From NCBI RefSeq assembly GCF_022747945.1, contig NZ_JALDST010000001.1:3410001-3474000 (forward strand): a stretch of DNA of 64,000 nt. The letters are read 5' to 3'. The number at the start of each line of letters is the position of its first letter. Within the stretch, counting starts at the first letter, position 1. Made by a program: the position numbers and the translations under genes. Shown here one piece after another: positions 1 to 55,399 of this stretch. Source of the DNA: Micromonospora sp. R77. GTDB lineage: Bacteria > Actinomycetota > Actinomycetes > Mycobacteriales > Micromonosporaceae. The notes beneath the pieces were generated by a model. It did no database searches and was not told the DNA's origin. It saw nothing but the letters and a program-made list of their open reading frames with translations.

Positions 1-946
1 GCACGTCCCAGGCCAGGTCCTTGGGATTGCCCTCGAACCGGAGGCTGCGTTGTCCGATGCCCTCCACCAGGGCCATCTGCGGGTACTCGCCGGCGACCTC
101 CTCCAGGGCATGCGCGATTTCCGGCTCTCTGAGCCGGAAGGCGCGCCCTGGGCCACCCGGCTCATTGGTGAGACGGGCCAGGGCGATGGAACCACTCTGC
201 AGAGGCTCGCTGCGTGCCGCGTAGTCCAGGCATGCGTAGGCGACCAGGGCCGGCGGCAGTGAGGTGCGGGCGTTGCTGGTGAAGTGCCAGCGGCTCGCTG
301 CGTTGTTGCGGCCGAACCCGGTGGGCTCCAGTAGCCCGAGTTCCCGGAAGGGGGAATCGAGCAGGTCCTCGAAACTTCCGCCCGAACCCGCGGTGGGTTC
401 ACGCCGGCGTGCGTACATCTTCGTGAGGCAGTCCGCGTCCTTGGTTACGGATGCCTCTACCGGGGGCTCCCAGCCAGCCAACCGTACGTGTCGCAGCGTG
501 GTCTCGGTGAGCTCGCTTGTGGTGAATCGGGACGTCGACTGGGCGTGGAAGGCCACCCACCAGGTGGGAGTGTGGCAGGGTTTTGCCAGTAGCCACCAGT
601 GCAGCAGCCACAGACTCGCAGTGTCCTCAAGGTAGGGGTCGGCGCCGTTCTCGTCGAGCAGCCATTTCGCCTCCCAGGTCGGTGAGGCGACGTTCGCCCG
701 AGACGTGGGGTCCTTTGGGTACTCGATGGTGAGTTTGAAGGCGTACGACCAAAACCGGATTGCATTGACCATGTTCTTACCCACGCCGAGTTTCACCGTC
801 GCGTTCTCGCGCAGAAACACGTCACTGCCGATGTTGGGGTCAGTCAAGGCGCTGTACGCCTTATGCAACCAGCCGAACCGGGGGTGGAAGGTCTCATGGC
901 GGGAGAACGACGGCTCGGCGACGTCCTTGAGCTTGGTTTCAAGCAT
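1..946 (-). CDS. DUF4007 family protein, C-terminus beyond window
   Basis: Partial gene: 315 codons from an ATG at 946 run off the left edge with no stop. The N-terminus shows the DUF4007 signature, RHETFHPRFGWL at residues 16-27 and KLGVGKNMVNAIRFW at 52-66. DUF4007 proteins are known as neighbours of DNA phosphorothioation (Dnd-type) genes; their biochemical role is not established. The ATG overlaps the stop of the upstream cysteine desulfurase gene by 8 bases, so the two are probably translationally coupled in one operon. The next gene to the left would be expected to encode the PAPS-reductase-like DndC, which is absent from this window. The family call is firm; any function is inferred from context. 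Confidence 0.85.
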   Translation of the reverse strand, partial: MLETKLKDVAEPSFSRHETFHPRFGWLHKAYSALTDPNIGSDVFLRENATVKLGVGKNMVNAIRFWSYAFKLTIEYPKDPTSRANVASPTWEAKWLLDENGADPYLEDTASLWLLHWWLLAKPCHTPTWWVAFHAQSTSRFTTSELTETTLRHVRLAGWEPPVEASVTKDADCLTKMYARRREPTAGSGGSFEDLLDSPFRELGLLEPTGFGRNNAASRWHFTSNARTSLPPALVAYACLDYAARSEPLQSGSIALARLTNEPGGPGRAFRLREPEIAHALEEVAGEYPQMALVEGIGQRSLRFEGNPKDLAWDV

Positions 947-2147
947 CGTGTCTCCGCGGTCCTTCCTGCCCCTGGGCGGTTCCAGAGGCAGACGTGGTGG
1001 TGTTTGGGTACAGGGCAGCGTGAACCCGGCGCTCAGCGTCGATCACGTGGCGAATGGCGCTATCAATGTCATCGGCGGTAGTGGCGTAGCCCAGAGAGAA
1101 GCGGATAGTACATTCGGCTTCATCCCGGCTCAGGCCCATGGCCAGCAGGACCCGGCTCGGCTCCATAGCGCCGGCCGCGCAGGCGCTGCCCTCGGACGCG
1201 GCTATGGCGGGCATGGCGGCGAGCATCGCGTCGGCCGGCAGGCCGTCGAAGGTCAGACTCGATACGCCGGGTAGCCGCCGGTCGGGATGACCGTTGCGGC
1301 GGGTGCCGGGTAGGGCGGTCATGACAGCGGTCTCGAAGCGGTCCCGCAGCAACCGGATACGCGAGGCCTCTTGATCGAGGCAACGGGCGGCAGCTTCAGC
1401 AGCGGCACCCAGGCCGACGATGCCGGGCACATTCAGGGTTCCCGGCCTCCGTCCGCGCTCATGACCGCCGCCGTACGCCAGCGGCCGGATCGCCATCGGT
1501 GTGCCCCGCCGCACGAACAGCGCTCCGACGCCCTGAGGAGCCCCGAACTTGTGGCCTGACAGCGACAGAGAGTCAAGGTCCAATCTGCGAAGATCGATGG
1601 GCAGTCGACCCACTAGCTGTGTCGCGTCGGAGTGCACCAACGCGCCGGCTTCGTGTGACAGCTTCACGACGAGTTCCAGGTCGTTCAGGACTCCGGTCTC
1701 ATTGTTAGCGGCCATGATCGATACCAGCGCGGGTTTCGCCGCCAGTGCTTCTTCTAGTTCATCGAGACACAGCGTGCCGTCGGGGTAGACACCGATCGTG
1801 TGAACCGTGCCGTCGAGAGTCGCTGCGGCCTCACTCACCGCCGGGTGTTCTACGGCGCTAATCACTAGACTGCGGCCAGGTGCCGCGGCGGACCGGATGG
1901 CTAGATTGTTGGCCTCTGTCGCACCGGATGTGAAGATCAACTCGTTTGCGGCGCAGCCCAACAGTGCCGCTACCCGGGCGCGCGCCTGTTCAACAGCGGC
2001 GGCAGCTTCCCTGCCGGGGGCATGAGCGCTCGATGCGTTGCCCACCGATCTGAGGGCCTCCGCCGTCGCGTGTAGCGCTTCGGGGCGGATTGGGGCGGTG
2101 GCGTTGTAGTCAAGGTAAACGATGGGACCAGTGCCTGTGCGGCCCAT
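939..2147 (-). CDS. Cysteine desulfurase, DndA/IscS-like
   Basis: 402-residue PLP enzyme that would take sulfur from cysteine as a persulfide and pass it to an acceptor, here most likely the phosphorothioation machinery. Visible are the N-terminal YLDYNATAP motif, NNETG, HSDATQ, the PLP lysine in SLSGHKFGAPQG (about residue 200) and the active-site cysteine in SEGSACAAG (about residue 323). Length fits the family. The ATG at 2147 was chosen because GGGAGGAGG lies just upstream; a longer frame reaches 2237 but adds no family sequence. It lies in the same operon direction as DndD and DUF4007, but a 574-base gap separates it from the gene upstream, so it may have its own promoter. A housekeeping IscS role cannot be excluded, but the DUF4007 overlap argues for Dnd. 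Confidence 0.92.
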   Translation of the reverse strand: MGRTGTGPIVYLDYNATAPIRPEALHATAEALRSVGNASSAHAPGREAAAAVEQARARVAALLGCAANELIFTSGATEANNLAIRSAAAPGRSLVISAVEHPAVSEAAATLDGTVHTIGVYPDGTLCLDELEEALAAKPALVSIMAANNETGVLNDLELVVKLSHEAGALVHSDATQLVGRLPIDLRRLDLDSLSLSGHKFGAPQGVGALFVRRGTPMAIRPLAYGGGHERGRRPGTLNVPGIVGLGAAAEAAARCLDQEASRIRLLRDRFETAVMTALPGTRRNGHPDRRLPGVSSLTFDGLPADAMLAAMPAIAASEGSACAAGAMEPSRVLLAMGLSRDEAECTIRFSLGYATTADDIDSAIRHVIDAERRVHAALYPNTTTSASGTAQGQEGPRRHDA

Positions 2148-2721
2148 CCTCCTCCCTTCGTTTTGCACCCACCCTATGGGCTGGTGGCAGTCGGCAGAAC
2201 CTCGACACGCCCCACCAGCCGTGATCATGGATGGCAAGGCTACCGCATGAGGGTTCCCGTCCGCTCTACGCCGGCCACGTCGTTACGCCGTCGACTAGAG
2301 AATGCCAACCATCGCGTTGGCGCAGTCGGGCGCCCGCTCATGTCGATGTCGTAGGCGTCCGTCTCATGATCCACGCGGCTAGGGACTTCGAGGCGGAGCG
2401 CGCGGCGGATGTCGTTCAGGCAACCGCACTGCTGCACTGCTGCGGGCAACGTGACGCTGCGTACCCTCTTCGCCGTTGTCCCCTCGCCCACCACACTCGT
2501 ATGCCGACTCAACGCCCTAGCCGGTCGACCGGACATCTCCGGCGCGACGAGCAGGCCGATGGCTCGCAATCACTGCCCTGCTCGCAAGGCGCTCGGTAGC
2601 ACCGGACTCCGGCGGGCGACGCGAGGCTAGGTTGAGCTCGACCCTCGCCATGCCGGCACCCGGAAGGGCCATGGTGGGGTCGAGTGACGTAGCGGCTCCC
2701 TGATGGCTGCGGTCCACGTAA
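2148..2721. other. Gene-free stretch inside the Dnd-like operon
   Basis: About 570 bases between the 136-residue gene and the cysteine desulfurase gene. The only long frame, on the minus strand at 2240-2569, has no recognisable family sequence and no convincing ribosome binding site. The stretch probably holds a promoter for the desulfurase-DUF4007 pair; no clear -10/-35 boxes were assigned. Confidence 0.5.
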
Positions 2722-3132
2722 CTAGAGCGTCGCGGGGTCCAAGTAGTTCATGAGGGTCAGCGTAGGCTCGTTCTGCCCAGTCAACGTATCGACGAGAAGC
2801 TCGAGTCCATAGTTCGCGTGCTCGGTGGCCAGTTGTATGACATCGCGCGGTCGAGTCAAGATGTCCTCACCGCGGAGGCCGAGCGCAATCAATTCCAGAT
2901 GGACAATCCGCCAGGGGTCGCTGCTGAGGATCGTTCCGTCCATGAACTTGGTGCGCCTGTCAGGCAGGGGCCGCGTCTGATTGTGCCGGACGCCTAGGCA
3001 GAACGCGATCCACCATGCGTCGACTTGCCGTTGGAATGGCTGTCCTGTCCCAACATACTCACGGATGACCCGGTGCTCGTCCTCCGGCATGAATAGGTCG
3101 ATGGCTGCGTACCGATTGTTGATCTCTACCAT
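2722..3132 (-). CDS. Dnd-associated protein of unknown function, 136 aa
   Basis: Small protein rich in charged and aromatic residues, with no signal peptide or membrane segment. Its start codon overlaps the stop of the DndD-like gene (ATG at 3132), so it is almost certainly co-translated with it. It sits where classical clusters carry DndE, but I do not see DndE sequence. Motifs such as FMPEDEHRVIREY near the N-terminus and ILSSDPWRIVHLELIALG in the middle suggest a compact helical protein. It may belong to one of the small Dnd-system-associated families; this is a guess from position and size. No catalytic motif is apparent. Confidence 0.75.
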   Translation of the reverse strand: MVEINNRYAAIDLFMPEDEHRVIREYVGTGQPFQRQVDAWWIAFCLGVRHNQTRPLPDRRTKFMDGTILSSDPWRIVHLELIALGLRGEDILTRPRDVIQLATEHANYGLELLVDTLTGQNEPTLTLMNYLDPATL

Positions 3133-5285
3133 CAGACAGTGACCTCAATATCCTGAAAAGCCAGTCCGTGTGCGTTGTCGATGTGACGGGCGCAGATGCG
3201 GCATGACTGCTCGTGGGTGCAGGCGCACGCACGCACCTCGGCCTGTTCGCTGTCCTCGCCTAGCCAGTCGTACACGAGGTCCGTAGGGTAGTCCTTGCTG
3301 CATGAGATCGTGGTGAAAGCCCCGGCGTGCTGTTGCAACAGGTCGCCAACCTCCATGATTTCGGAACGGGTCAGCAGGAGGATGACCTGGTATGGCGGTT
3401 CGTCGCCGGTCGGTGGGTGGGTGATGGTGTTCACCATCCGCTGCTTCACTCCTCCGGACACCATGCCCAAGGGCGTATCGATCAGACGTGGCGCCGTGAT
3501 GGCTGCCACCTCCATGAGCGACCAGATGAACGCTAACGTGAGAGCACGTTGCGAAGCGCCGTTGAGTTCATAGTCGGTGTCAAGATTCGTGCCGTTCTGG
3601 CTCTCGACCACGATGTCGAACTTGTCGGTGATGGATACACCCTTGAAAACCCCGAGATGGGCGTCCGGCTCTGCTCCGACAATTGACAGGAAGATCTCCT
3701 GAAGGCGCGTCGAGACCTTTTTTACGTACTCGTCCTCCAGGCGTCGTTGCACCCGTTCGGCAAGTTCGCGTAGTTCCTCGGCTACGTCACGCTTGATAAT
3801 GAGGTCTTGGTTCGCCCGGTTTTTCTGCGTGACTTTAGACAGCTCCTGTTCGCGCTCCTCGAGCTGCCGCTCGTACTGGGCGATGCGCTCGGCGATGCGG
3901 CCTAGTTCGAGGACACCGGCGGCGATCTTCTTACCGACAGCGGCGAGCTCATCGGTCAGTGTTCGCACCCGCGCGTCATCGATGCGGCTGCGCTTCGATT
4001 CTGCCTGCTTCAGCTCGACATCAGCTCGGTTAAGGTCATCGCGGGCTGCGGTGTAGTCGGCCAACGTTGCTTGACGCTTGGCCGCGAAGGCGTCGACGTC
4101 AGCGGCAGCGAGATCGAAGGCGGCCGCACTGTACCTCAGCTCAGTCAACCGTTGGGCCATGTCTGAGTGCTCGCGTTGCTCTTCAAGCAGTTGGACAACG
4201 TGGTCCCGCAACGCGGTACCCGGATGCAGGTCAGACCCGCAGATGCACTCCTCTTCTTCGAGCCGATCTTGAAGCACCTTCAGGGACGTGTTCGGGATGA
4301 CGCGCCGGTCGGCGAGCTCCTCGAGCTTCGCTTGCCCGTTTGCCAGGCCAGCTGCGGTGAACGCTCGCGACAAGGGTTGCCCCTTGAACGCGGATTTCAT
4401 GTCGGCCAAGGCTGCGTCCTCCCGGGCACGACAAGCCTGTATGCGGCCCTTAAGCGTACTGATCTGAGCGTTCAACTCGTCGAGGTCGCCTATACCGCGC
4501 AGCTGTGCGAGTTCCCGTTCCCACTCGTGCTGCTGGGTCTCCATTGACTTCTTGCGGCCTTCGGTCGCGGTACGAAGCTGCTCTTGCTCGGTTATCTGCT
4601 GCCGGAGCGCCTCGCACTGCTCCTCGAGTTCCTCGGCGTCCTTGCCGCTCTCCGCCGACACTCGCCGCTTCAGCCCGCCATGGACATTTTTGAGGTCGCC
4701 TACGGCGGTCGTCAGTTGATCGATACCGAGAAGTTCCCGGATTGCCTGATGTACCTTTGCCTGCCGCTCGTGGGAGTACACCCGCCCCGAGATGAACTTC
4801 TGGATGTCGTCACCATTGGTAAAAAACAGCTCCGACAATCGCAGTGGGACGAGTCGTTCGACCCACGCTTCCGCCGCCGGCACCAACTTGTCGCCCTCTG
4901 GGGTGAGCCTGGCGAGCGTGAGCGAATCTTGGCTGCGCCGCGGGGGACCCTCTACCTGAGGCGTCTCCAGCACCATGCGGCGCAACCGAAATTCACTGTT
5001 CGTGCCCATGTCGTCGGTGTGGCTAAAGACGATCTCAACCTCCACCGCCACAGGCGAGCCTGCACGACAAAAGGTTGAGGTGAGCCGAGGGGCCTCGATG
5101 TTGGCGACCTTCGTCAGCCCTGCCATGCCGTAGAGGCCCCACAGCATCGCGTATAGCAAGCTGGTCTTACCGGATCCGTTCTCACCGCGGATGACCGTCA
5201 GCGGCCGCTCTGGATCCACCGAGAAGTGGATCGTCACATCACGCAGCAGCTTGAAGCGAGAGATGTGCACCGACTTGATCATCAT
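3132..5285 (-). CDS. DndD-like SMC/Rad50-type ATPase
   Basis: 717-residue coiled-coil ABC ATPase of the Rad50/SbcC/DndD type. Walker A is GENGSGKT at residues 34-41. Long charged coiled-coil arms surround a short Cys hinge, CICG at 347-350, resembling a zinc hook but with CxC instead of CxxC. The signature region with LNGASQRALTLAF falls near 570-585 and the Walker B region LIDTPLG near 600. DndD supplies ATPase activity for phosphorothioate modification and may open the DNA. An extra C-terminal tail holds a cluster of cysteines (CACTHEQSCRICARH), a likely zinc site. The gene overlaps both neighbours by 4 and 1 bases. A general Rad50-like repair ATPase is the alternative, but the neighbours favour DndD. 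Confidence 0.85.
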   Translation of the reverse strand: MMIKSVHISRFKLLRDVTIHFSVDPERPLTVIRGENGSGKTSLLYAMLWGLYGMAGLTKVANIEAPRLTSTFCRAGSPVAVEVEIVFSHTDDMGTNSEFRLRRMVLETPQVEGPPRRSQDSLTLARLTPEGDKLVPAAEAWVERLVPLRLSELFFTNGDDIQKFISGRVYSHERQAKVHQAIRELLGIDQLTTAVGDLKNVHGGLKRRVSAESGKDAEELEEQCEALRQQITEQEQLRTATEGRKKSMETQQHEWERELAQLRGIGDLDELNAQISTLKGRIQACRAREDAALADMKSAFKGQPLSRAFTAAGLANGQAKLEELADRRVIPNTSLKVLQDRLEEEECICGSDLHPGTALRDHVVQLLEEQREHSDMAQRLTELRYSAAAFDLAAADVDAFAAKRQATLADYTAARDDLNRADVELKQAESKRSRIDDARVRTLTDELAAVGKKIAAGVLELGRIAERIAQYERQLEEREQELSKVTQKNRANQDLIIKRDVAEELRELAERVQRRLEDEYVKKVSTRLQEIFLSIVGAEPDAHLGVFKGVSITDKFDIVVESQNGTNLDTDYELNGASQRALTLAFIWSLMEVAAITAPRLIDTPLGMVSGGVKQRMVNTITHPPTGDEPPYQVILLLTRSEIMEVGDLLQQHAGAFTTISCSKDYPTDLVYDWLGEDSEQAEVRACACTHEQSCRICARHIDNAHGLAFQDIEVTV

Positions 5286-5500
5286 GAGCTTGCTCCCCCA
5301 CGCGAGGTGACGGCGGATCGACCGAGAGCGTGGACAATCTTGGCGACTTCGTCACGACGCTGGTTCGTATGTGCTATCGACTGCTTAACAACAACCTCGT
5401 CGAGAGCCTTGACCAGTGCTGCCCGGAATCCGGGATACCTTTCGGGGATTGCAAGTACTTCCTGCTCGGCGACATCGTGAATCCGGGGGGTGACTGCCAT
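5282..5500 (-). CDS. 72-aa protein between helicase and DndD
   Basis: Very small acidic-to-basic helical protein starting at ATG 5500, with AGAGGT upstream and only 13 bases after the helicase stop. Its stop overlaps the DndD start as ATGA. The same frame extends to 5686, but that part overlaps the helicase C-terminus and is of shadow composition, so the short start is preferred. No family recognised; the position suggests an accessory subunit or adaptor of the modification/restriction complex. Confidence 0.65.
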   Translation of the reverse strand: MAVTPRIHDVAEQEVLAIPERYPGFRAALVKALDEVVVKQSIAHTNQRRDEVAKIVHALGRSAVTSRGGASS

Positions 5501-5513
5501 TCTGACCTCTGCT

Positions 5514-7649
5514 CTAGACGCTGCGTTCGAGCCTGCTGATGATTGTTCGGGGGCCGTCGGGGTCGTACTCGTTCTCCGCTGCGCCGGCGAACTCTCGAGC
5601 CCGGGCAAGCTCGCCCGCAAGAATGGCGCGGCCTTCGTTGGTGTCGTCGCTGGGCGGCAGGACGATGAAGTCGTGCAATATGGCATGGGATTTACCGACC
5701 GCCCGTCGTAGGATCCTGCCTCGACGCTGGACCCATTCCCGGCGTACTGTGCTCGATGCCAACAGGTACGCGGTGTCGGTCTCCGGCAGGTCGATTCCCT
5801 CGTCGAGAACCTTCATGGCGGTCAGTGCCTGGTACTCGCCGCGGCCGAATGCCTCCAGATACTGCTCAGATCCGCGCCGGCCGGTCTCCGCACTGGTGAA
5901 TTCGTGGAACCGGATCCCGAGCCGCCGAAGCAGGGCGTTGGCCTCGTCGAGCTGCTTGGTGCCGCCTAGCACCTGTTGCTTGGCGGAGGCGTAGATCAGG
6001 GTGCGAGCTACCTCACGGACGCCGGTCTCCACGAGGAGCGCTTCTAGCGCAACGATCTTGGCGGAGGCTTGCTCCAAAACGGCGCGGCGCTTACGCAGCA
6101 GGTGTTCGATCTGATCCTCCAGACCGTCGACCGAGCCGTCGTCCTGTCTGTTGAATCCTTTACGCCGCAACTGTCGGCTCAAGTCGACATAGACGGCGAA
6201 CTCGTCGGCGGTGAGTCTGACCTCGTGCAAATAGTACCGGTACGGCGTTAGACATCCGACCTCAATCGCATCAGCAAGCGTGAACTCGTATATCGGCGGC
6301 CCGAAGTAGTTGAACAGCTCGGCGCTCCCGGCTTCGTCGTACTGCCGCGATGGCGTCGCGGATAGGCCGAGCCGGACGTCGAAGCGGTGTGGCGCCACCC
6401 GCAGAAACGTTGGGGCACCTAGATTGTGCACTTCGTCGCCGATTAGCATTGTCAAGACCCGTTGCGGCAGTGCTTCGATGCTCTCGCGGAGGCCTTCATC
6501 ACGAACAAACAGCTGCTGGGTGCACAGCACCACTGTCGTATAGGTGGCTTCCGTGGTCAGACTGGCTTTCAGCTCTTCAAGCCAGACGCGTCGCTTCGGT
6601 ATGGTCAGCGCGCTCGGTACGGCAGGTTCGATACCGAAGCGCCGCACTACCTCGATCCATTGACGCATCAGCGGCGCGGTCGGCACGATGATGACTATCA
6701 GCATCGGCCCGGTATGACGGTCCTGTTCGTTCGCCGCGGCGATCAACGACGTTTGGGTCTTGCCTCCCCCTGTAGCAATGGCCAGGATCCCCCGTGAGCC
6801 TGCGCCGATGAAGGTCCGCACGGCGACACCTTGATGCCGGTACAGCCCTGTCTCCCATTCGACGTCGTCGGGTACGACCAGTACGCGAGGAGGGTGTGTC
6901 ACCACGCCCGGCGGTAGGGCGGGCTCGAGCCCGCGCATGTGGTCGGCCTGCCAGGCTCGCCAGAAGTCGTCGATAGTGGGTACGGAACGCTTGGCGCCAC
7001 GTCGGTCAAGCATTCGCAGGCCGTCGGTGACGTCGATGGACAGCACGTGCGGATTCTCGTTGTTCCAGTCCCGCTCCCAGCCGCGGAGCAGCTTTGTCAC
7101 CCTGGTCTCGGCCGCCGGACCGTCCGCCCATGGCCGGTCGACTGTCATTTGCTCACCGTTGACCAGCAAGCCGCGAGCGGTTGCGTTGCCCGAACCATGC
7201 ACGGCAAGCCAGTCGGTCCCGCCGCGTAGCAGCCACTTCTTCTTGTGGTACTGGCCCCGAGCCATCAGCGCGAAACGTACCGTGAGCCGGCCGGTGGCGA
7301 TCAGATAGGCGAGGCAGTCGAGCGTGTGCTGCACGAGGGCCGACGCCGACACGACCGCGTCGGCGAGCAGCCGCTGCTCGATATCGTGTATCACCTGCTC
7401 AGGCTGCTTGGTACCTCGCTCAAGAGCCTCACGGTCCGCATCGTCGATTTCGGGACTGATGAGAAGGCTGAGATGACGGCCAGAGTGAGCCAGGAAGTCG
7501 GCGAGCCCGGGCGCGATCTGAGCGAAGCAGCGCGAGCTGAAGAACCCTGCCCCGATGCGAGCCTCATCGGCTGCGGCCATCGCCGGAATCAGGACCTCTC
7601 CGACAAGGTCATCGTCGGGAATCTGGTAAAGAGGGTCGACCTTGATCAT
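5514..7649 (-). CDS. Dnd-system restriction helicase with HKD-nuclease-like N-terminus
   Basis: 711-residue superfamily 2 helicase. The N-terminal part (about 1-180) looks like a phospholipase-D/HKD nuclease half: YHKKKWLL followed by GSGNAT near residues 136-155. The helicase core shows Walker A ATGGGKT (about 293), DEVH as motif II (about 403), LSATPSR (about 431), LIYASAK, and the arginine finger region VQRRGRILRR (about 643). Such helicases are known beside dnd genes as phosphorothioation-linked restriction enzymes. Here the likely role is cutting DNA that lacks the modification. The start at 7649 (MIKVDPLYQIPDDDL) was chosen because sequence further upstream is of poor coding quality. 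First gene of the operon. Confidence 0.87.
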   Translation of the reverse strand: MIKVDPLYQIPDDDLVGEVLIPAMAAADEARIGAGFFSSRCFAQIAPGLADFLAHSGRHLSLLISPEIDDADREALERGTKQPEQVIHDIEQRLLADAVVSASALVQHTLDCLAYLIATGRLTVRFALMARGQYHKKKWLLRGGTDWLAVHGSGNATARGLLVNGEQMTVDRPWADGPAAETRVTKLLRGWERDWNNENPHVLSIDVTDGLRMLDRRGAKRSVPTIDDFWRAWQADHMRGLEPALPPGVVTHPPRVLVVPDDVEWETGLYRHQGVAVRTFIGAGSRGILAIATGGGKTQTSLIAAANEQDRHTGPMLIVIIVPTAPLMRQWIEVVRRFGIEPAVPSALTIPKRRVWLEELKASLTTEATYTTVVLCTQQLFVRDEGLRESIEALPQRVLTMLIGDEVHNLGAPTFLRVAPHRFDVRLGLSATPSRQYDEAGSAELFNYFGPPIYEFTLADAIEVGCLTPYRYYLHEVRLTADEFAVYVDLSRQLRRKGFNRQDDGSVDGLEDQIEHLLRKRRAVLEQASAKIVALEALLVETGVREVARTLIYASAKQQVLGGTKQLDEANALLRRLGIRFHEFTSAETGRRGSEQYLEAFGRGEYQALTAMKVLDEGIDLPETDTAYLLASSTVRREWVQRRGRILRRAVGKSHAILHDFIVLPPSDDTNEGRAILAGELARAREFAGAAENEYDPDGPRTIISRLERSV

Positions 7650-9823: not shown

Positions 9824-10426
9824 GTGACTGTCCGTGATCGACGGAGGCGTCGGGTCAGGCACCGACCATGCCGACCCCGCAATCCGCTGCCCGCTGTAGC
9901 TGTTCTCGCCGCACTGGTCGCTATCGCGGCTGCGGGCGGCTGCACGGGTGCCGAGCCCGCCGAAGACGGCCGAACTCCGCTGCCATCTGTTCCCGCGCCG
10001 ACCCAGGACGCCCGCGGCAGAGCCGAGGAAGCGGCGCTGGACGCCTACCGAGGCATGTGGCAGGCCTACGCGAAGGCCGGCCTGACGGCCAACCCGGACG
10101 AGCCTTCCCTGGCTGTGCACACCACCGGCGAAGCGTTGACGAACCTGAAGAACGGCCTGGCGAAGCTTCGCCGGGACGGCGAGGTCGTCAAGGGCGAGTA
10201 CCAGTCGGATCCGCAGGTCACGGAAGCCTCGCCTGCTGCCACGCCGTCGAGCATCTCGGTGCTGGACTGCCTGAACACGGCGCGATTCCTCACCTACAAG
10301 ACGGCGACTGGAGCATTGGCCGATGACGTGCCGGGCGGGAACCGTGCCGTGAGGGCGACCGTGACCCGCGACGACGGCGGCTGGAAGGTGTCCAGCTTCG
10401 GTGTACAGGCGGTCGGCTCATGCTGA
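9824..10426 (+). CDS. Putative lipoprotein at head of Tad operon
   Basis: 200 residues starting at a GTG with GGAGGG a few bases upstream. A basic N-terminus, a hydrophobic stretch (VAVLAALVAIAAAG) and GCTG form a plausible lipobox with Cys near residue 40. The mature part, after a proline-rich spacer, has a DAYRGMWQAYAKAG start and a VTRDDGGWKVSSFGV end, reminiscent of NTF2/SnoaL-like folds in actinobacterial lipoproteins. The stop overlaps the next start (ATGCTGA). It may serve as a surface partner of the pilus; the function is unknown. Confidence 0.8.
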   Translation: MTVRDRRRRRVRHRPCRPRNPLPAVAVLAALVAIAAAGGCTGAEPAEDGRTPLPSVPAPTQDARGRAEEAALDAYRGMWQAYAKAGLTANPDEPSLAVHTTGEALTNLKNGLAKLRRDGEVVKGEYQSDPQVTEASPAATPSSISVLDCLNTARFLTYKTATGALADDVPGGNRAVRATVTRDDGGWKVSSFGVQAVGSC

Positions 10427-14024: not shown

Positions 14025-14873
14025 ATGGACCTGCTGCCGATCCTGCTCGGCCTGGGCTGCGCCGCCGGCCTGATCCTCGTCGCCGACGGGCTACGCCGCC
14101 GCCCACCCGGCACCCCGACCACCCGGACACGGCAACGCTGGACGTCGGCCGACCGCACCCGGCTCCTCGCGGCCATCGTCGCCGGATTCGCCGCCGCGGC
14201 GGCGACCCGTTGGCCGGTCGCGGCGCTGCTGACCGCCGCCGCGGTGTGGGCGCTGCCCCGCGTCCTCGGCCCAGACAGGGAACACACCCGCGCGATCGCC
14301 CGGATCGAGGCGATCGCCACCTGGGCCGAGCTGCTGCGCGACACCCTGTCCTCGGCCGCCGGCCTGGAGCAGGCCATCACCGCCACTGCCCCTGTCACCC
14401 CCCAGCCCATCCGCCCCCAGGTGCAGGCCCTCGCCGGGGCGGTGCGCGGCGGAGCACGGCTGCCCGACGCGCTGCGCGCGTTCGCCGCCGACCTCGCCGA
14501 CCCCACCGCCGACCTCGTCGTGCGCGCCCTGACTCAGGCCGCCGGCTACCACGGCGGGCAACTGTCCCAGTGCCTGACCAGCCTCGCCGCCACCGCCCGC
14601 GAGCTCGCCGGCATCCGCATGCGGGTGGCCACCAAACGGGCCGCGACCCGAACCGCCGCCCGGGTCATCACCGGCACGTCGGTCGCGATGGTCGCCGGGC
14701 TGATCCTGCTCAACCGCGGGTTCCTCGCCCCCTACCGCAGCGTCACCGGACAGCTCGTGCTCCTCGTCGTCGGAGCGGTGTTCGCCGGCGGATTCTGGTG
14801 GCTGGCCCGCGCCTCCCGCGTCCCGCAACCACCACGGGTGCTCTCGGCCGACCAGCCCGGGCAGGTGGCGTGA
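14025..14873 (+). CDS. TadB-like inner-membrane platform protein
   Basis: 282 residues with a type II secretion F domain: two N-terminal membrane helices, then the cytoplasmic helical block with LRDTLSSAAGLEQAI and two C-terminal membrane helices. It forms the membrane platform with TadC. ATG 14025 is used; GTGs at 14016 and 14019 overlap the CpaF stop and are possible starts. Confidence 0.9.
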   Translation: MDLLPILLGLGCAAGLILVADGLRRRPPGTPTTRTRQRWTSADRTRLLAAIVAGFAAAAATRWPVAALLTAAAVWALPRVLGPDREHTRAIARIEAIATWAELLRDTLSSAAGLEQAITATAPVTPQPIRPQVQALAGAVRGGARLPDALRAFAADLADPTADLVVRALTQAAGYHGGQLSQCLTSLAATARELAGIRMRVATKRAATRTAARVITGTSVAMVAGLILLNRGFLAPYRSVTGQLVLLVVGAVFAGGFWWLARASRVPQPPRVLSADQPGQVA

Positions 14874-15745
14874 TGGCCGCCTTCGTGGTGGCGTGCGGCG
14901 TCGTCGCCGGCCTCGGCCTGGTCCTGGCCGGCACCGGCCTGCATCCCGCCCGCCCCAGCCTCGCCCAGGCCCTCGACGCCCTGCGCCGCACCCCGGCTGC
15001 CCCGGAAGAACCAGTGGGGGCCAGGATCCGGCTGCTCGCCGCGCCCCTGCGCGCCCTCGGCCTGCCCCGGCAGCGGATGCGCGCCGACCTCGCCGTACTC
15101 GGACGGCCGACCGCCACCCACCTGGCCGACCAGGCCCTCGCGGTCCTCGCCGGCCTGCTGCTGCCCCCGGTCGCGATGGCCGTCCTCGCCTCCGGCGGGG
15201 TCAGCTTCGCCGCCGGCATGCCGCTGTGGGCGTCGCTTGCTGGCGCGGCCGGCGGCTGGTGGCTGGCCGAGACCACCGTGCACGCCGAGGCGCAGCGGCG
15301 CCGCGACGAGCTGCGCTACGCCCTGTCCGCCGTGCTCGACCTCGTCGTCATCTCCCTCGCCGGCGGCGCCGGACTCGAACAAGCCCTCGACGACGCCTGC
15401 GCCGACACCCATGGCTGGGCCGCCGGACGCCTGAACCGTGCCGTGGCCACCGCCCGGCTGCTGCGCATCCCGCCCTGGCAGGCCCTCGGCCAACTCGGCG
15501 AGGACACCGGCGTCGTCGAACTGCAGGAACTCGCCGCGACGATGAGCCTCGCCGGCACCGAAGGTGCCCGCATCCGCGACTCCCTCACCATCCGCGCCGC
15601 CACCCTGCGCGCCCACCAGGCCGCCGCCCTGGAGGCCAGAGCCAACTCCGCCACCGAACGCATGTCCATGCCGGTCATGCTCCTCGCCGCCGCCTACATG
15701 CTGTTCCTCCTCTACCCGGCTGTCACCGCCGTGGACAGCTTCTGA
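14873..15745 (+). CDS. TadC-like inner-membrane platform protein
   Basis: 290 residues, again a T2SSF-type protein: N-terminal helix, middle helices near LAGLLLPPVAMAVLA and the cytoplasmic block DLVVISLAGGAGLEQALDDA, ending in MLLAAAYMLFLLYPAV. It partners TadB in the pilus base. The ATG starts on the last base of the TadB stop. Confidence 0.9.
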   Translation: MAAFVVACGVVAGLGLVLAGTGLHPARPSLAQALDALRRTPAAPEEPVGARIRLLAAPLRALGLPRQRMRADLAVLGRPTATHLADQALAVLAGLLLPPVAMAVLASGGVSFAAGMPLWASLAGAAGGWWLAETTVHAEAQRRRDELRYALSAVLDLVVISLAGGAGLEQALDDACADTHGWAAGRLNRAVATARLLRIPPWQALGQLGEDTGVVELQELAATMSLAGTEGARIRDSLTIRAATLRAHQAAALEARANSATERMSMPVMLLAAAYMLFLLYPAVTAVDSF

Positions 15746-15772
15746 CCCCGACACACCAGAAGGAGAAACGCC

Positions 15773-15979
15773 ATGCACCCCAGCAAGCTGATGGCCCTGC
15801 TGACCCTGGCACACCTCACCCTCACCGACCGGGCCCGCCGGCTGCGCGACTCCGGCGACCGGGGCAGCGAGACCACCGAGAAGGTCATGTGGATCGCCCT
15901 GCTCGTCACCCTCGTCCTGGCCGTCTACGCCATCTTCCAGGGCAAGATCATCACCAAGATCACCGGAATCAATCTCTAG
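15773..15979 (+). CDS. Small Flp-type pilin candidate
   Basis: 68 residues with AAGGAGAAA before the ATG. It has a basic leader, then DRGSETTEKVMWIALLVTLVLAVYAIF, that is a Gly followed by a Glu-containing hydrophobic helix. This layout suits cleavage by the prepilin peptidase encoded at 7967. It is the likely major pilin of this locus, though shorter and less canonical than Flp1 proteins. Confidence 0.78.
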   Translation: MHPSKLMALLTLAHLTLTDRARRLRDSGDRGSETTEKVMWIALLVTLVLAVYAIFQGKIITKITGINL

Positions 15980-15981
15980 CC

Positions 15982-16434
15982 ATGCACCGCACGCGACGAG
16001 GCAGGCGACGCCGGCTCGGTGGTGACCGCGGATCAGTCACCACCGAGGTGGTCCTCTACGCGCCTCTGCTGTTCCTGCTCGTCCTCGTCGGCGTGCAGTT
16101 CGCCCTGTGGGCCCTGGCCCAACTCGGCGTCCAGCACGCCGCGAACCACGCCCTGCAAACCACCAGGGTGTCCGGCGGTACCGCCGCCGCCGGCCGCGCC
16201 GACGCCACCGAGGTGCTCCGCCAAGTCGCCGGGCAGGTCGTCGTCGAGCCGCGCGTGTCGGTCACCCGCACCGCCGACACCGCCACGGTGGCCGTGGCAG
16301 GGCGGGTTCCCGCCGTCGTGCCGTTCCTGCGCCTGCAGGTCAGCACCCAGGCCAGCGCCCCGGTCGAGCGTTTTCGCCCCTCGACCCTGTCGCTGGCCTC
16401 CTCGCCGCCTGGAGTGGAAGGAGACTCGACGTGA
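15982..16434 (+). CDS. TadE-like pseudopilin 1
   Basis: 150 residues: basic leader, GDRGSVTTEVVLYAPLLFLL with the conserved Glu after a Gly, one long hydrophobic helix, then a small extracellular beta domain. TadE/TadF proteins are minor pseudopilins processed like the pilin. The stop overlaps the next GTG start. Confidence 0.87.
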   Translation: MHRTRRGRRRRLGGDRGSVTTEVVLYAPLLFLLVLVGVQFALWALAQLGVQHAANHALQTTRVSGGTAAAGRADATEVLRQVAGQVVVEPRVSVTRTADTATVAVAGRVPAVVPFLRLQVSTQASAPVERFRPSTLSLASSPPGVEGDST

Positions 16435-16898
16435 CCCGCGAGCAGCGACGCAGCCGACATCCACGCCGCCGGGCGCCGCGGCTGCGGGGAGACCGGGGTT
16501 CGGTCAGCGTCGAGATGGCGCTGAGCTACGTACCCCTGATGGTCCTGGCCGCCCTCGCGGTGGTGGCGTGCCTGCGCCTAGCCTCGGCCGCCATCGACGT
16601 CAACTCCGCCGCTGCCGCCGCGGCCCGCCAGGCGTCCCTCGCCCGCACCCCCGGCGAGGCCCGCGCCGCAGGCGCCGATGGCGCCTCCGCCACCCTGGCC
16701 GGGCGGGACTTCACCTGCCAGCCGTCCACCGTCACCGTCGACCCCGGCGCGTTCGTCCCCGGCGGGCAGGTCAGCGCCACCGTGGCGTGCACCGTCCGCC
16801 TCGAAGACCTCTACGGCCTCGGCCTGCCCGGCACGATCACCATCCGCGGCACCTCAAACCAGCCCCTCGACACCTACCGCGGGACAACGGCGCCATGA
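16431..16898 (+). CDS. TadE-like pseudopilin 2
   Basis: 155 residues from a GTG that overlaps the preceding stop. Basic leader, GDRGSVSVEMALSYVPLMVL as the TadE motif with Glu, then an exported part with two cysteines (FTCQP and VACTV) that could form a disulfide. Second of three related membrane-anchored secretins/pseudopilins in a row. Confidence 0.85.
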   Translation: MTREQRRSRHPRRRAPRLRGDRGSVSVEMALSYVPLMVLAALAVVACLRLASAAIDVNSAAAAAARQASLARTPGEARAAGADGASATLAGRDFTCQPSTVTVDPGAFVPGGQVSATVACTVRLEDLYGLGLPGTITIRGTSNQPLDTYRGTTAP

Positions 16899-17341
16899 AC
16901 CGGCTGCGTACCCGCCTGCGGCAGGCCCGCCACGACGACCGCGGCCAGATCACCCCGTGGACGATCTTCGGCGTCGTCCTCGTCCTCGTTCTCGCCGGCC
17001 TGGTCCTCGACCTGGGCCTGGGCATGTCGGACAAGGTGCGGCTGCTCGACGTCGCGCAGGGCGCCGCCCGGGCCGGCGCCCGCGAGATCGACCTCGCCAC
17101 CTATAGGGCCACCGGCACTGTCCAGCTCCAGCCGGCCCAGGCCGCCGCAGCCGCGCGGAGCTTCGCCCAACAGGCCGGTGTCGACGGGCAGGTCACCGCG
17201 TCCGCCACCCCCACCGCCGTCACCGTCACCATCAGCGGCACCCGACAGACGCAGCTGCTGCACCTCGTCGGGATCAGCGCCCTGCCGGTGTCCGCGACCG
17301 CGACCGCCAGCCCTCTGACCGGCGTTACCGCACCGAATTGA
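16895..17341 (+). CDS. TadG-like membrane-anchored pilus protein
   Basis: 148 residues, ATG overlapping the preceding stop (ATGA). A short basic head with DDRGQITPWTIFGVVLVLVL leads into one membrane helix; the rest is an Ala-rich exported domain with alternating Val/Thr strands. It matches the short TadG/TadE-like third member usual in actinobacterial Tad loci. Confidence 0.83.
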   Translation: MNRLRTRLRQARHDDRGQITPWTIFGVVLVLVLAGLVLDLGLGMSDKVRLLDVAQGAARAGAREIDLATYRATGTVQLQPAQAAAAARSFAQQAGVDGQVTASATPTAVTVTISGTRQTQLLHLVGISALPVSATATASPLTGVTAPN

Positions 17342-20300
17342 CCAGGACCGCCACGCCACGACCGGGAGCCCCAGTGTTCGCATTCCTCGCCGCCACCGCC
17401 CGCCGGCTGGCCGGACTCGGGATCCTGGTGCTGCTCACCGCCGGCGTGCCGTATGCGCTCATCCGATACGTCGGCTGGCCGCTACCCCGCGAGGTCCCCA
17501 CCTGGCAGGACGTCGGCACCGCCCTCACCTCACCGCTGACCGACGCCATGCTCGGCAACGCCGTCGTGTGCCTGCTCTGGGCGGTGTGGGCGGCGTTCAT
17601 CTGGTCGCTGATCGCCGAGGTCGCCGAAACCGCCACGGGCATCCGCCTGCCGCAACCCCGAGCCATCGCGCCGGCCCGCGGGCTCGCCGCCATCCTGGTG
17701 GCCGCCATCAGCGGCGGCGTCCTCGCCACCGCCGCCCAGGCCGCACCGGCCCTCACCCAGCCAGCACAAGCGACAACCGCCCACACCAGCGCCACCGCGA
17801 CGGCCCCGGCAACCACCGTGCCCAGCAGCACCGTGCGGCTGGTGAGCACGGATGGGCACCACACGCAGCCCTGGCAGACAGCCGCGTCGACGTCCGCCCT
17901 GGCGGACATGGGGGAACCGGTGCCGACCCGGCTGGTAGCGGGCCACGTGACGCTCGTGTCATCCGGGCAGACCTACACCTGCGAGGTGCGGCGCGGGGAC
18001 ACCCTGTCGAAGATCGCCCAGCAGTGGCTCGGCGACGCCAACCGGTGGCCGGAGATCTTTGCCCTCAACCGGGGCACCCACTTCCGCGACATCGGCGGCA
18101 CCCTCACCAACCCGAACCTGATCTACCCCGGCTGGACCCTGGAACTGCCCGACGACGCCACACCACCCGCCGGCACACCCCGGACCCCACCACCCGCCGA
18201 CCCCCCGGCGACAGGCCCCGAACAGCCGACACACGGCACCGCAACGCCCGCGCCGACACCACCGAGCCAAACCAATCCGCAGCCACCCGACGCGTCATCC
18301 GTGAGCCCGTCGCCAGGCTCCACCACCCGGGCACCGCACGACGGTGACGACGGCGTAGTCCACGTCCCCTCGCCGTCGGTCTTCACCGCGCCCGCTGACC
18401 CGCCGTCGGCCTCCGGAGCCTCGACGACGCCCCGCCCCTCGGTGGACGGGCAGCAGACACCCGGGCCGCGAACGGAGGCGTCACCCGGTGTCTCACTCGG
18501 CACCGGCAGCTGGCTCGACGCCGGGCTCGTCGCCGCGATCCTCGCGGCCGTCGCCCTCGTCTGGGCCCACCGCCGCCGCCGCTACATCCGCCGGCCCGTG
18601 TCGGCCGACCTGCGACTGGACGACCCCGACGTGGCGCCCATGCCGCCCGTGGTGAACCAGATCCGCCGCCGCCTGCGCCACGCCACCACGACCTCCACCG
18701 ACCCGGCCAGCCACGAAGGTCCGGACGACGACCTCGGCCTGTTCACCGACCCGGACGACACCGAAGCGAACGACAAGACCGACGACGGCACCTCCGCACC
18801 GGACAGCCCTGCTGCCTCCGATCAGGACGCCGACCTGCTCGACGACGACCGTCCAGGGATCGCCGGGCGGTACGACGAGAACGACGCCCTCGACGATGCT
18901 GGTCTCGACGACGAGGACGATCCTGAGAAGCCGGCGCCTGCCGCGGACCCGAGCCTGGGCGATGACGCTGCGCTTCGCCCGGTGGTGCCGTCGCTGGCGC
19001 ACCCGATCGCCGCGGTCTGGCCGCCCGCCGGCCTGGGGCTCACCGGTCCCGGCGCGGAGGCCGCCGCCCGCGGGTTCATGGCCGCCGCCCTGGCCGCCGG
19101 AGGCCTCGACGCACCAGAAGACCGCACCTGGCTGGTCATGCCATCAGCGACCGCGGCGACGCTGCTCGGCGCCGGTGCCGTCGCACTGCCCCGCACCCCG
19201 CGGCTGACCGTCACCGGTGGCCTGGACGAGGCACTCGACCTGCTCGAGGCGCAGACCCTGCACCGCAGCCGCATCGCCTACGCCCACGAGGTCGACACCG
19301 TTGCCGAGGCCCGCGCGGCGGACCCGACCGGGGAGCCGATGCCGCCGGTCCTGCTGCTGGCCGACGCCGACACCCGCCACCAGCGCACCCGCATCGCCGC
19401 GCTCCTCGCCCAAGGCCAGCGCCTGGACATCCACGGCGTGCTGCTGGGCGCCTGGCCCGACGGCGACACCATGGTGGTTGCCACGGACGGCGTCACCAGC
19501 CGCGCCGACGGCGAGGGCTCCCGCCACGGCGGTCACCCGGCCGACATCGGCCGGCTGGCCGTCCTCACCCCGTCCGAGACCAGCGACCTGCTCGTTACCC
19601 TCGCCGAGTCCCACACCGGCCAGCCGCAGGCTCCCGCCCCGGCCGAACCCGTCACCACCGCCCAGGCCACGACCGCCGCACCCGATGCGCAACCTTCTCC
19701 CGACACCGAGCCGGCGCCACCCGACGTCCCCTTCTGCGAGGGTGAACACCTGCCGGCATCCGGCCCGGAGCCCGTGCCCGCCGCCCCGGCAACAACACCA
19801 GACAGCGCCGACAGTCAGACCACCCCGGGCACCCAGGCAGCGGCGACAACTCCGCCCACCGGCGCCCATGCCCGCGGCACGGAGACTCCCCGCGACGGTG
19901 CGCCCCCGCCCGCCGTGGAGGAACCGGACACCGACGGCGCGGCCGAGAACAGCCAGGAGACCAGCCACGGGAGGGTACAGGTCACCGTCCTGGGCACCGC
20001 CGCGATCGTCGACGTGCCGCCCGGGCCGACGCTGCGCAAGAAATCCCTCGAAGTGCTCGTCTACCTGGCCGTGCACGACGGCGACGCCTCCGCCGAGGCG
20101 ATCCTCGACGACCTGCTCCCCGACGCCCCCGCCAACAAGGCACCCGGCCGGCTCTACACCTACGTGTCCGACCTGCGCACCATCATGCGCCGCACCGCAG
20201 GACGTGGCACCTACCTCACCCACCCCCACCAGCGGTACGTCCTCAACCGCTACGCCGTCGACGTGGACCTGTGGCGCATGCGCGCCGCGATCCGCGACGC

Positions 20301-54141: not shown

Positions 54142-55399
54142 GTGATTGACCACCGACCCGCACCGCGCATCGGATCGCTGTGCACCGGCTACGGCGGCCT
54201 TGACCTGGCCGTCGAGCTGGTGCTCGGCGGCCAGCTCACCTGGTACGCCGAAACTGACCGGCACGCCGCCACCGTCTGCGCCCACCACTGGCCCAACACA
54301 CCCAACCTCGGTGACATCCGCACCGTCGACTGGACCCGCGTCGCACCCGTCGACGTCCTCACCGCCGGGTTCCCCTGTCAGGACATCTCGAATGCCGGCA
54401 AGCGCGCCGGCATCACCGGAGCGCACTCCAGCCTGTGGCGTGCCGTCGTCGACGCCGTTCGCGTCCTTCGACCGCCGCTCGTGTTCGTGGAGAACGTCGC
54501 CGCGCTCCTACGGCGAGGGTTCGACGTCGTCGAAGCCGACCTGGCCGCGATCGGGTACGACACGAGCTGGACGTGCCTACGCGCGTCCGACATCGGCGCC
54601 GCCCACCGCCGCGACCGGCTGTTCCTGCTGGCCGCACCCACCGGACGAGTGGGAGGAGGTGCGGACGCTGCCGACACCGTGCGCCCGTGACGGCAAAGGA
54701 CCCGGCCTTCCGTACGGGCTGCCCGACCTCATCGAACCGTCAGGCTCGACCTACGGCCTCCTATCCACCTCCACCGCGGGGCGCAGCGCACGCGACGTTG
54801 AGCACCGGCATGCGCGGGCCGACGGCGGGCGTCTGCTGCCCACCCCCAGGGCGAGTGACACCGGGACGCCCGGACGACGTGCGGGGGCCGGGTTTCGGCC
54901 CCCGCTATCCCAGGTGCTCCTGCCCACCCCACGGGCCACCGACGGCGAGAAAGGTTGCCCTGGGCAGCGCGGCTCACACGGCGACCTGACTCTCCCTTCC
55001 GCGGCGGTGCGGGTCCCGACCCGGCTCCTGCCCACCCCGCGCGTGTCCGACGGGTGCGGTCCTGGGCGGCATGGCGACGGTGGCGCGGACCTGCGCACCA
55101 CCGTTGCTGGGCTCGGGCAGCCCGACGAGCAGCGGTGGGGCGCCTACGCCGACGCGGTCGCCCGCTGGGAGCTGTTGCTCGGCCGGCCCGCACCGGCACC
55201 CACGCAGATCGGCCGGCACGGCAAGCCCGTCCTCGCGCCGCCGTTTGTGGAGTGGCTCATGGGCCTCAACCCAGGCCATGTCACCGGCCCCGACCTGGGG
55301 CTGCCGCGCACGCGCGCGCTGCGGGTCCTCGGCAACGGCGTCGTCCCCCAACAGGCCGTCGCCGCCCTGCAGCTGCTGCTGTGCCCACACAGGTGGTAA
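54142..55399 (+). pseudogene. C5-cytosine methyltransferase, frameshifted
   Basis: Start GTG 54142 with GGAGG upstream. SAM motif (SLCTGYGGLDLAVE), catalytic PCQDIS near residue 77 and ENVAALLRRG are in one frame. After LFLLA (about 54633) that frame runs on in non-family sequence and stops at 54690. The expected continuation (HPPDEWEEVRTLPTPCARDG, then LLPTPRASD repeats, LNPGHVTGPDLGL and RVLGNGVVPQQA) is in the next frame to 55399. One extra base in GGCCGCAC near 54633 explains it. This is either a real inactivation, a sequencing error or slippage. Confidence 0.88.

Follow-up and report, generated by a model that had tools for sequence, protein, structure and literature searches.

What kind of system joins a DUF4007 protein and a cysteine desulfurase to a DndD-like ATPase and an HKD nuclease-helicase, and where is the partner that would transfer the sulfur? 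The question is raised by the left end of a 64,000-nucleotide stretch of Micromonospora sp. R77 DNA (the window), positions 3410001–3474000 of a contig within a 7.14-Mb genome. A sequence-only reading had placed these genes, together with two small proteins of 72 and 136 amino acids (aa), in a Dnd-like operon. Following the locus beyond the window edge and comparing it with family models, solved structures and homologous loci, we consider it probable that this is a phosphorothioate (PT) defence locus with two effectors, in which SspABCD writes the mark, SspE and PbeABCD read it, and Pbe is an exchangeable cassette. Writer and effector are each known; judged by sequence comparison, their pairing appears real and recurrent, and the comparative evidence for it is good.

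The minus strand is transcribed in the order pbeA, pbeB, pbeC, pbeD, a 574-bp gap, sspA, sspB, sspC, sspD and a gene matching TIGR04096, while sspE lies on the plus strand. Genes left of the window are given in the coordinates of a second segment, L002 (contig 3400001–3419000), where window position equals L002 position minus 10000. Start codons were assigned by visual inspection, guided by gene overlaps, ribosome-binding sites and the lengths of homologues.

5514–7649, minus strand: pbeA, HKD (phospholipase D-type) nuclease fused to a superfamily 2 (SF2) helicase, 711 aa; PADLOC PbeA, E = 1.0e-174
5282–5500, minus strand: pbeB, 72 aa; named by position and size
3132–5285, minus strand: pbeC, Rad50/DndD-like ABC ATPase with a CxC motif, 717 aa; PADLOC PbeC, 1.2e-54
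2722–3132, minus strand: pbeD, 136 aa, divergent dnd_assoc_4 / DndE-like; TIGR04062 at E = 0.0059, and position
939–2147, minus strand: sspA, cysteine desulfurase, 402 aa from an ATG preceded by GGAGG; PADLOC SspA, 3.8e-123
1–946 (L002 9837–10946), minus strand: sspB, DUF4007, 369 aa, extending 164 bases beyond the window edge; PF13182, 3.9e-86, and PADLOC SspB, 2.5e-110
L002, probable ATG at 9840, stop at 6265, minus strand, left of the window: sspC; PADLOC SspC, E = 0
L002 6268–5429, minus strand, left of the window: sspD, PAPS-reductase type; PADLOC SspD, 8.8e-117
L002 4845–3352, minus strand, left of the window: TIGR04096 'DNA phosphorothioation-associated putative methyltransferase', 5.7e-169
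L002 886–3186, plus strand, left of the window: sspE; PADLOC SspE, 2.2e-207

The modification half of the locus is, by these matches, Ssp, with the DUF4007 protein as SspB and the desulfurase as SspA. The four genes are contiguous, each matching its own PADLOC model. SspB aligns with solved SspB (6juf/6lb9) at E = 4.2e-123 over residues 2–358 of 369, and the gene matched by the SspD model reaches only 1.2e-5 with the DndC model. For the desulfurase, the SspA model scores slightly above DndA (4.1e-117); in the Protein Data Bank (PDB) its matches include 6m4j, an 'SspA complex protein' (7.2e-44), which general cysteine desulfurases outscore. The SspC gene also matches BrxC (1.8e-96), and the SspD gene weakly matches BrxP. 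SspE carries DGQQR at residue 92 and EHIAP at 625, has GmrSD_N and GmrSD_C domains (DUF262-DUF1524 type with HNH), and matches solved SspE (6jiv, 4.5e-95) and a DUF262 protein (9.1e-104). The modification genes are thus of Ssp type, not Dnd-like as first proposed, while the expectation of a sulfur-modification type defence locus held: the extension to the left, suggested as a way to find the sulfur-transfer partner, contains SspD as well as SspC, the TIGR04096 gene and SspE. The genome has two further PAPS_reduct matches besides SspD, so a separate Dnd system may exist elsewhere in it. Homologues of the TIGR04096 gene occur beside Ssp, Dnd and Pbe loci (L044, L047, L048, L050, L056, L078, L093, L108, L177, L178 and L202), and this putative methyltransferase is perhaps a further shared PT component.

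The helicase, the 72-aa protein, the ATPase and the 136-aa protein are, on the same kind of evidence, the PbeA, PbeB, PbeC and PbeD of an effector module, so that the helicase, once suggested to act as a single-protein restriction partner, is the first gene of a four-gene cassette. It is 82% identical to homologues from Nonomuraea (N. terrae CH32) and Microtetraspora (M. fusca NBRC 13915), matches TIGR04095 at 4.8e-102 (under the model cut-off), and has HKK, GSGN and SF2 motifs. Among 87 aligned PbeA sequences, the H and K of HxK are kept in 84 and the S and N of GSxN in 83 and 84, respectively, and the helicase motifs GxGKT, DExH, SAT and QRxGR in all 87. The ATPase scores higher with the PbeC model than with DndD (4.4e-39) and has a Walker A motif (GENGSGKT) and CIC at residue 347; all 75 long PbeC sequences have C-x(1-2)-C in their middle part, as CxCG in 37 and as CxC or CxxC in the rest. 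SspA has SGHK and SACAAG, SspD has SGGKDS and six cysteines, and SspC has a Walker A motif. The motifs of SspA, SspC, SspD, SspE, PbeA and PbeC are those that we take to be expected of active enzymes.

The two small proteins were named from their place in 80 tabulated PbeA loci (75 from a genome-collection scan, the window and four more). In 77 of these, PbeA and PbeC are separated by an open reading frame (ORF) no longer than 110 aa, a count that omits the window's own pbeB; in 72, PbeC has an ORF of 125–215 aa behind it. Because ORFs recur at those places, the 72-aa protein was assigned to PbeB and the 136-aa protein to PbeD. Homologues of PbeB (24 among the matches listed, 70–71 aa) and of PbeD (29 among the matches listed) exist, so the named genes are real and not chance ORFs; with the family matches of the larger four, all six genes of the original description stand, on the minus strand. 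PbeB had no significant Pfam or NCBIfam match (best Pfam, Ter, E = 0.095); PADLOC gave a single hit, a weak one to a type III enzyme (5.2e-4).

PbeD bears on the earlier statement that neither DndB nor DndE is recognisable, which is half right: for DndE it may not hold, as the 136-aa protein sits at the PbeD position and weakly matches TIGR04062 (dnd_assoc_4), far below the cut-off. The same model matches PbeD orthologues at 3.7e-5 (L049, 81% identical to the window's protein), 5.8e-6 (L051), 7.3e-20 (L078) and 2.0e-27 (L054), and gave no match for PbeD of L043 and L056. A broad PbeD profile (47 sequences) aligned with nine canonical DndE at an hhalign probability of 73.8%, against 9.5% for a profile of mostly close orthologues. 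PbeD has been called a cognate of DndE (PMC10853773). The kinship comes from that literature, and our sequence results are compatible with it. Run against the PDB, the PbeD profile picked up designed pentatricopeptide repeat proteins, which are not credible relatives; the best of them (E = 5.8e-7) matched by way of 17 residues.

How often does Pbe accompany a sulfur writer? Four PbeA queries returned at least 588 stretches from at least 168 relatives; PbeA-locus counts refer to the best 80, with flanks of up to 10 kb, nearly full in 31. PbeC comes after PbeA in 75 of these 80. SspB, SspC or SspD flanks PbeA in 34 of the 80 loci and DndC in 11; a genome-wide search of 33 of the remaining 35 added SspB in four and DndC in six (one of them partial and under the cut-off; the six leave out four weaker matches to the DndC model). 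This gives 38 genomes with Ssp-type genes, 17 with DndC and 25 with neither, two of the 25 judged by flank only. The helicase homologues, which might have lain mostly outside sulfur-modification loci, thus adjoin such a module in 45 of 80 loci, or 55 of 80 with the rest of the genome. SspB itself was found in 31 flanks and elsewhere in four genomes (35/80), while L109, L123 and L125 show SspC or SspD only. L056, where one gene resembles SspC and another weakly resembles PglZ, was left out of the Ssp count; with it the flank count would be 35/80. Among the 34 Ssp-Pbe loci, the nearest writer gene precedes PbeA on its own strand in 26, is convergent in four, downstream on the same strand in two and divergent in two; in 20 of the 26, PbeA comes after SspD or SspA with less than 150 bp between the ORFs.

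SspB is far rarer in genomes drawn at random, without the centre genomes: 6 of 345 in Actinomycetota, 17 of 295 in the Flavobacterium phylum and 8 of 298 in the Moraxella phylum, or 31 of 938 in total. Compared with the 35 of 80 PbeA genomes, Fisher's test gives p = 9e-25, and within Bacteroidota (18/24 against 17/295) p = 4e-15, both treating genomes as independent, which they are not. SspB, SspC or SspD is present in 5 of 6 PbeA genomes of Pseudomonadota, against SspB in 8 of 298, and in 2 of 5 of Actinomycetota, against 6 of 345. Starting from the 31 random SspB matches and reading up to 20 kb around each, less at contig ends, PbeA and PbeC lie within ~10 kb in at least 6 (L043, L161, L166, L167, L169 and L176; PbeA is cut by the edge in L167 and L169). 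This is a lower bound, as several contigs are short and L171 and L172 hold only an SspB fragment. An SspE model with the window's SspE as its only source sequence matched one of the 31 (L180). TIGR04095 was too noisy a probe for whole genomes: it matched 334 of 346, as well as all 14 controls, and PbeA was accepted only at E < 1e-90; three of the four genomes so found have SspB.

On a PbeA tree of 87 sequences, made by a quick method, 5 changes account for the Ssp label, and well-supported branches force at least 4 of them; shuffled labels need 26.8 on average, and none of 500 shuffles was as low; the shuffles address clustering only, and changes do not separate gain from loss. The Dnd label needs 11 changes, and Ssp against Dnd alone 2. 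Ssp accompanies Pbe in 9 of 10 members of the mixed clade that holds the window (Actinomycetota, Pseudomonadota and others), in 21 of 23 members of a Bacteroidota clade and in all three members of a gammaproteobacterial trio. Most simply, Pbe and Ssp would have joined on more than one occasion and then mostly have been kept together; one early joining followed by losses is the alternative. The modules stand in the order Pbe-Ssp in the window locus and in Nonomuraea (L049); L043, L176 and many Bacteroidota have Ssp first, and the SspBCD-methyltransferase block of Microtetraspora (L050) has the opposite orientation relative to Pbe. A seamless example comes from the complete plasmid CP099618.1 of a leaf Sphingomonadaceae bacterium, an uninterrupted array of ~11 kb in the order sspA-B-C-D-pbeA-B-C-D, with genes overlapping or 1 nt apart. 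Its genes encode a cysteine desulfurase, DUF4007, SspC, SspD, PbeA, a 74-aa protein, PbeC and a 148-aa protein; PADLOC confirms six of the eight, and the 148-aa protein is 31% identical to the window's PbeD over 131 aa (E = 1e-14). SspE was not found in the 21.5 kb read of this plasmid.

A congener, G978, offers the converse case. Its Ssp locus is close to that of the window (SspE 85%, methyltransferase 82%, SspD 99%, SspC 98%, SspB 98% and SspA 84% identical), and no Pbe protein was matched in the 26 kb read there and no PbeA genome-wide, where the best match was a helicase (1.3e-5). DNA similarity is clear to ~2245, ~100 bases upstream of the sspA start, and patchy beyond. On the side where the window has Pbe, G978 (L186/L187, ~14272–17822) has ORFs of 523 and 661 aa, both on the plus strand, the latter with a GHKL-type ATPase-like start, judged by eye; the region may be a defence hotspot. 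SspB occurs in 1 of 60 relatives besides this genome, and this rarity marks the Ssp locus as accessory. The prepilin peptidase to the right of the locus is poorly conserved in the genus (best match among 11 congeners 52% identical, the other ten 34–46%), and an IS21-type pair lies farther left (L003 13165–14984).

Are Pbe and Ssp one operon here, as originally described? Within each module the coupling is tight. pbeA and pbeB are 13 nt apart, pbeB and pbeC overlap by 4 nt and pbeC and pbeD by 1 nt, and sspA, sspB, sspC and sspD overlap one another. The description fails between the modules, at the 574 bp from pbeD to sspA:

2148–2721, no strand: gap between Pbe and Ssp; the sole ORF tested there, 2240–2569, had no family match
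2179–2187 and 2212–2220, no strand: inverted repeat GGCTGGTGG / CCACCAGCC, immediately 5' of sspA

The gap is presumed to be the promoter region of sspABCD. The inverted repeat is found at the same place in G978 and is perhaps an operator; it was not seen 5' of sspA in L043, L045, L048 or L049, the last of which carries another repeat.

Four known systems come closest to the locus. SspABCD-SspE has the same writer genes, and the SspB and SspE here are close to the solved proteins; the window locus adds PbeABCD as a second effector. The effector module of haloarchaeal DndCDEA-PbeABCD (PMC6459918) is made up of the four genes found here, in unchanged order (an HKD-SF2 helicase, a small protein of 66 aa against 72 here, a zinc-hook type ATPase and a PbeD of 152 aa against 136 here), but its writer is Dnd where ours is Ssp. 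In Vibrio anguillarum SspABCD-SspFGH (PMC8092258), one Ssp writer is able to serve two effectors, as proposed here, and SspE and a second effector add up; there the second effector is SspFGH, with a Walker A protein and FtsK-like SspH, and here it is Pbe. No gene of the locus fits SspH by its family matches; no SspFGH sequence or named model was run. Bacteriophage exclusion (BREX) type 4 (PMC12839542) also has DUF4007, together with a PAPS reductase and an ATPase of BrxC/SspC type; the window locus differs in having SspD instead of BrxP and neither PglZ nor BrxL among the genes scanned.

By analogy with these systems, we infer PT chemistry, a PT motif, reading of single-strand PT by Pbe and a role in defence for the window locus. 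SspA would take sulfur from cysteine, SspD (a PP-loop protein) would activate it and hand it on, and SspB would nick the DNA with the SspC ATPase assisting sulfur placement, leaving single-strand PT marks at a short motif, of which 5'-CpsCA-3' is an example for Ssp. SspE, a GTPase and HNH nickase, would be switched on by PT, the motif roles being in part those described for this PT-switched GTPase-nickase (PMC9646914); Streptomyces lividans HXY6 has served as a host for SspABCD-SspE (PMC9646914). In the second effector, PbeC with the DndE-like PbeD would scan DNA and PT would license the complex; the PbeA translocase and its HKD nuclease would act on unmarked replicating DNA and block its replication. 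PbeABCD would serve Ssp and Dnd writers alike. Haloarchaea without pbeB, pbeC or pbeD were no longer protected, those without pbeA kept a little protection, and a DndA active-site mutant lost it; PbeABCD there is PT-dependent, is not notably toxic without PT and lets PT-marked virus escape, and no cleavage was seen (PMC6459918).

Must the two modules work together at all? They could be neighbours in a defence island, with Ssp-SspE working and PbeABCD landed alongside, acting alone or with a base methylase. The 574-bp gap and the Ssp-SspE locus without Pbe in G978 would fit this, as would the 25 of 80 PbeA genomes with neither PT writer (two by flank only) and the 155 of 320 dnd-less pbeAC that lie near methylase genes (Xiong et al., PMC6459918). 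We think it improbable, however, given the 20 of 34 Ssp-Pbe loci that form tight same-strand arrays, the seamless array of CP099618.1 and the clustering of the Ssp label on the PbeA tree. Of three cytosine-methylase matches in the genome, the closest to the locus is ~46 kb away (only PF00145 was searched); a partial PF00145 cytosine-5 DNA methylase match lies at ~54169–54636 of the window on the plus strand (model positions 3–161 of 324, open frame of 218 aa). A rather more serious contender, though still an unlikely one, is that Pbe resembles DndFGH and SspFGH and, rather than being activated by PT, attacks any unmarked DNA in restriction-modification style, harming the host if Ssp is lost. 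SspFGH acts so with the same mark (PMC8092258), PMC10853773 argues that Pbe cuts DNA, and the HKD motif is present in the window's PbeA and in 83–84 of the 87 rows. Archaeal PbeABCD without PT is, on the contrary, little toxic and non-protective, and cleavage of viral DNA was not seen (PMC6459918).

A Dnd system whose DndC or DndE has been lost or lies far away could account for a cysteine desulfurase and a DndD-like ATPase in one cluster and for the nearly equal SspA and DndA scores, but SspB, SspC and SspD are all present, SspD (8.8e-117) far outscores DndC (1.2e-5) and PbeC scores above DndD. The PADLOC scores rule out a Dnd reading of the local genes, and the possibility as a whole is very remote. 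We give equally little credence to a degenerate BREX type 4 made of BrxC, BrxP, DUF4007 and desulfurase: DUF4007 occurs in 442 (97%) of type 4 BREX taxa (PMC12839542) and the BrxC and weak BrxP matches point the same way, but the SspC and SspD models score far higher, the scan of the locus genes turned up neither PglZ nor BrxL, and this identity is rejected here. Against these stands the two-effector PT locus, which the gene identities, the motifs, the recurrence and clustering of the pairing and its presence and absence between congeners support. Several observations count against it. PbeD is only weakly akin to DndE by sequence, 574 bp separate pbeD from sspA, and two of the four PbeA queries adjoin Ssp, so that the Ssp share among the best 80 loci may be inflated. 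Neither SspB nor a clear DndC was found in 25 of 80 PbeA genomes (two by flank only), and Pbe may work with other marks too; beside random Actinomycetota SspB loci, it occurs in only one of six. Two of the 24 plasmid records with a PbeA match were examined: one is Ssp-Pbe, and the other, from Arthrobacter, is Dnd-Pbe, with DndC, a DndD-like ATPase and a methyltransferase beside Pbe and a PbeA match split over two frames.

Ssp and Pbe loci vary in other ways. Of the 38 Ssp-type PbeA genomes, 28 were labelled Ssp proper and 10 a BrxP-like type (BrxP identity from L063 only). Loci of Clostridia/Fusobacterium/Treponema type (L063:1731-3476, L065, L082, L090, L097, L103, L113 and L115) have SspB, SspC and an SspA-like gene with Pbe; where the sequence read includes the reductase, it is only weakly SspD/DndC-like and, in L063, the one tested, BrxP-like (2e-83). 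They are labelled a separate BrxP/SspBC type, an SspB/C writer with a BREX-4-like reductase. SF2 helicases of ~420–560 aa lie near or adjoin SspD in Ssp loci without Pbe nearby (L178:14904-16586, L181:14766-16442, L157:2170-3753, L163:684-2342 and L045:11002-12264). Such short helicases, including that of L162, match the helicase part of PbeA and were not scored as PbeA; they are perhaps another Ssp effector. Extra defence-like genes stand inside some Ssp-Pbe arrays (L117:7547-9671, L107:5089-6219, L103:7698-9950 and L089:8550-9782); they are NsnA-like, PD-T4-6/mad6-like, OLD/AbiL-type ATPase, HEC-05/PDC-M55C-like and DndB-like.

The suggestion that this combination is little studied has held up, as no description of an Ssp-Pbe pair was found in the open-access full texts searched, of which parts were seen, and an earlier mention is possible. 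PMC7464106 pools dnd and ssp as 'PT-modifying genes' and reports pbeA-D in ~10% of its Mycobacterium and Vibrio; its data may therefore include an Ssp-Pbe strain that went unremarked. A published survey found SspE and SspFGH both missing from 2,211 of 2,678 sspBCD loci and raised the question of further effectors (PMC8092258); in Acinetobacter, sspE is absent beside other ssp genes in 5,518 of 5,530 cases (PMC12421847). Pbe, beside at least 6 of 31 random SspB loci, is a concrete candidate partner for part of these effectorless loci. On a broader view, which we rate as evenly balanced between true and false, PbeABCD would be a writer-independent PT effector serving Dnd double-strand PT, Ssp single-strand PT and the BrxP/SspBC-type writer, in specialised lineages each; it would fill the vacant partner role in a substantial part of the 'orphan' sspBCD loci, and here SspE and Pbe would share one mark as layered immunity. 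Because related Pbe modules adjoin both Dnd and Ssp writers, PT sensing by a Rad50/DndE-type effector is open to test, and the 11-kb CP099618.1 array and the natural pair of congeners with and without Pbe make the pairing testable. If the exchangeable-effector reading is true, part of the printed puzzle of effectorless sspBCD loci would be answered.

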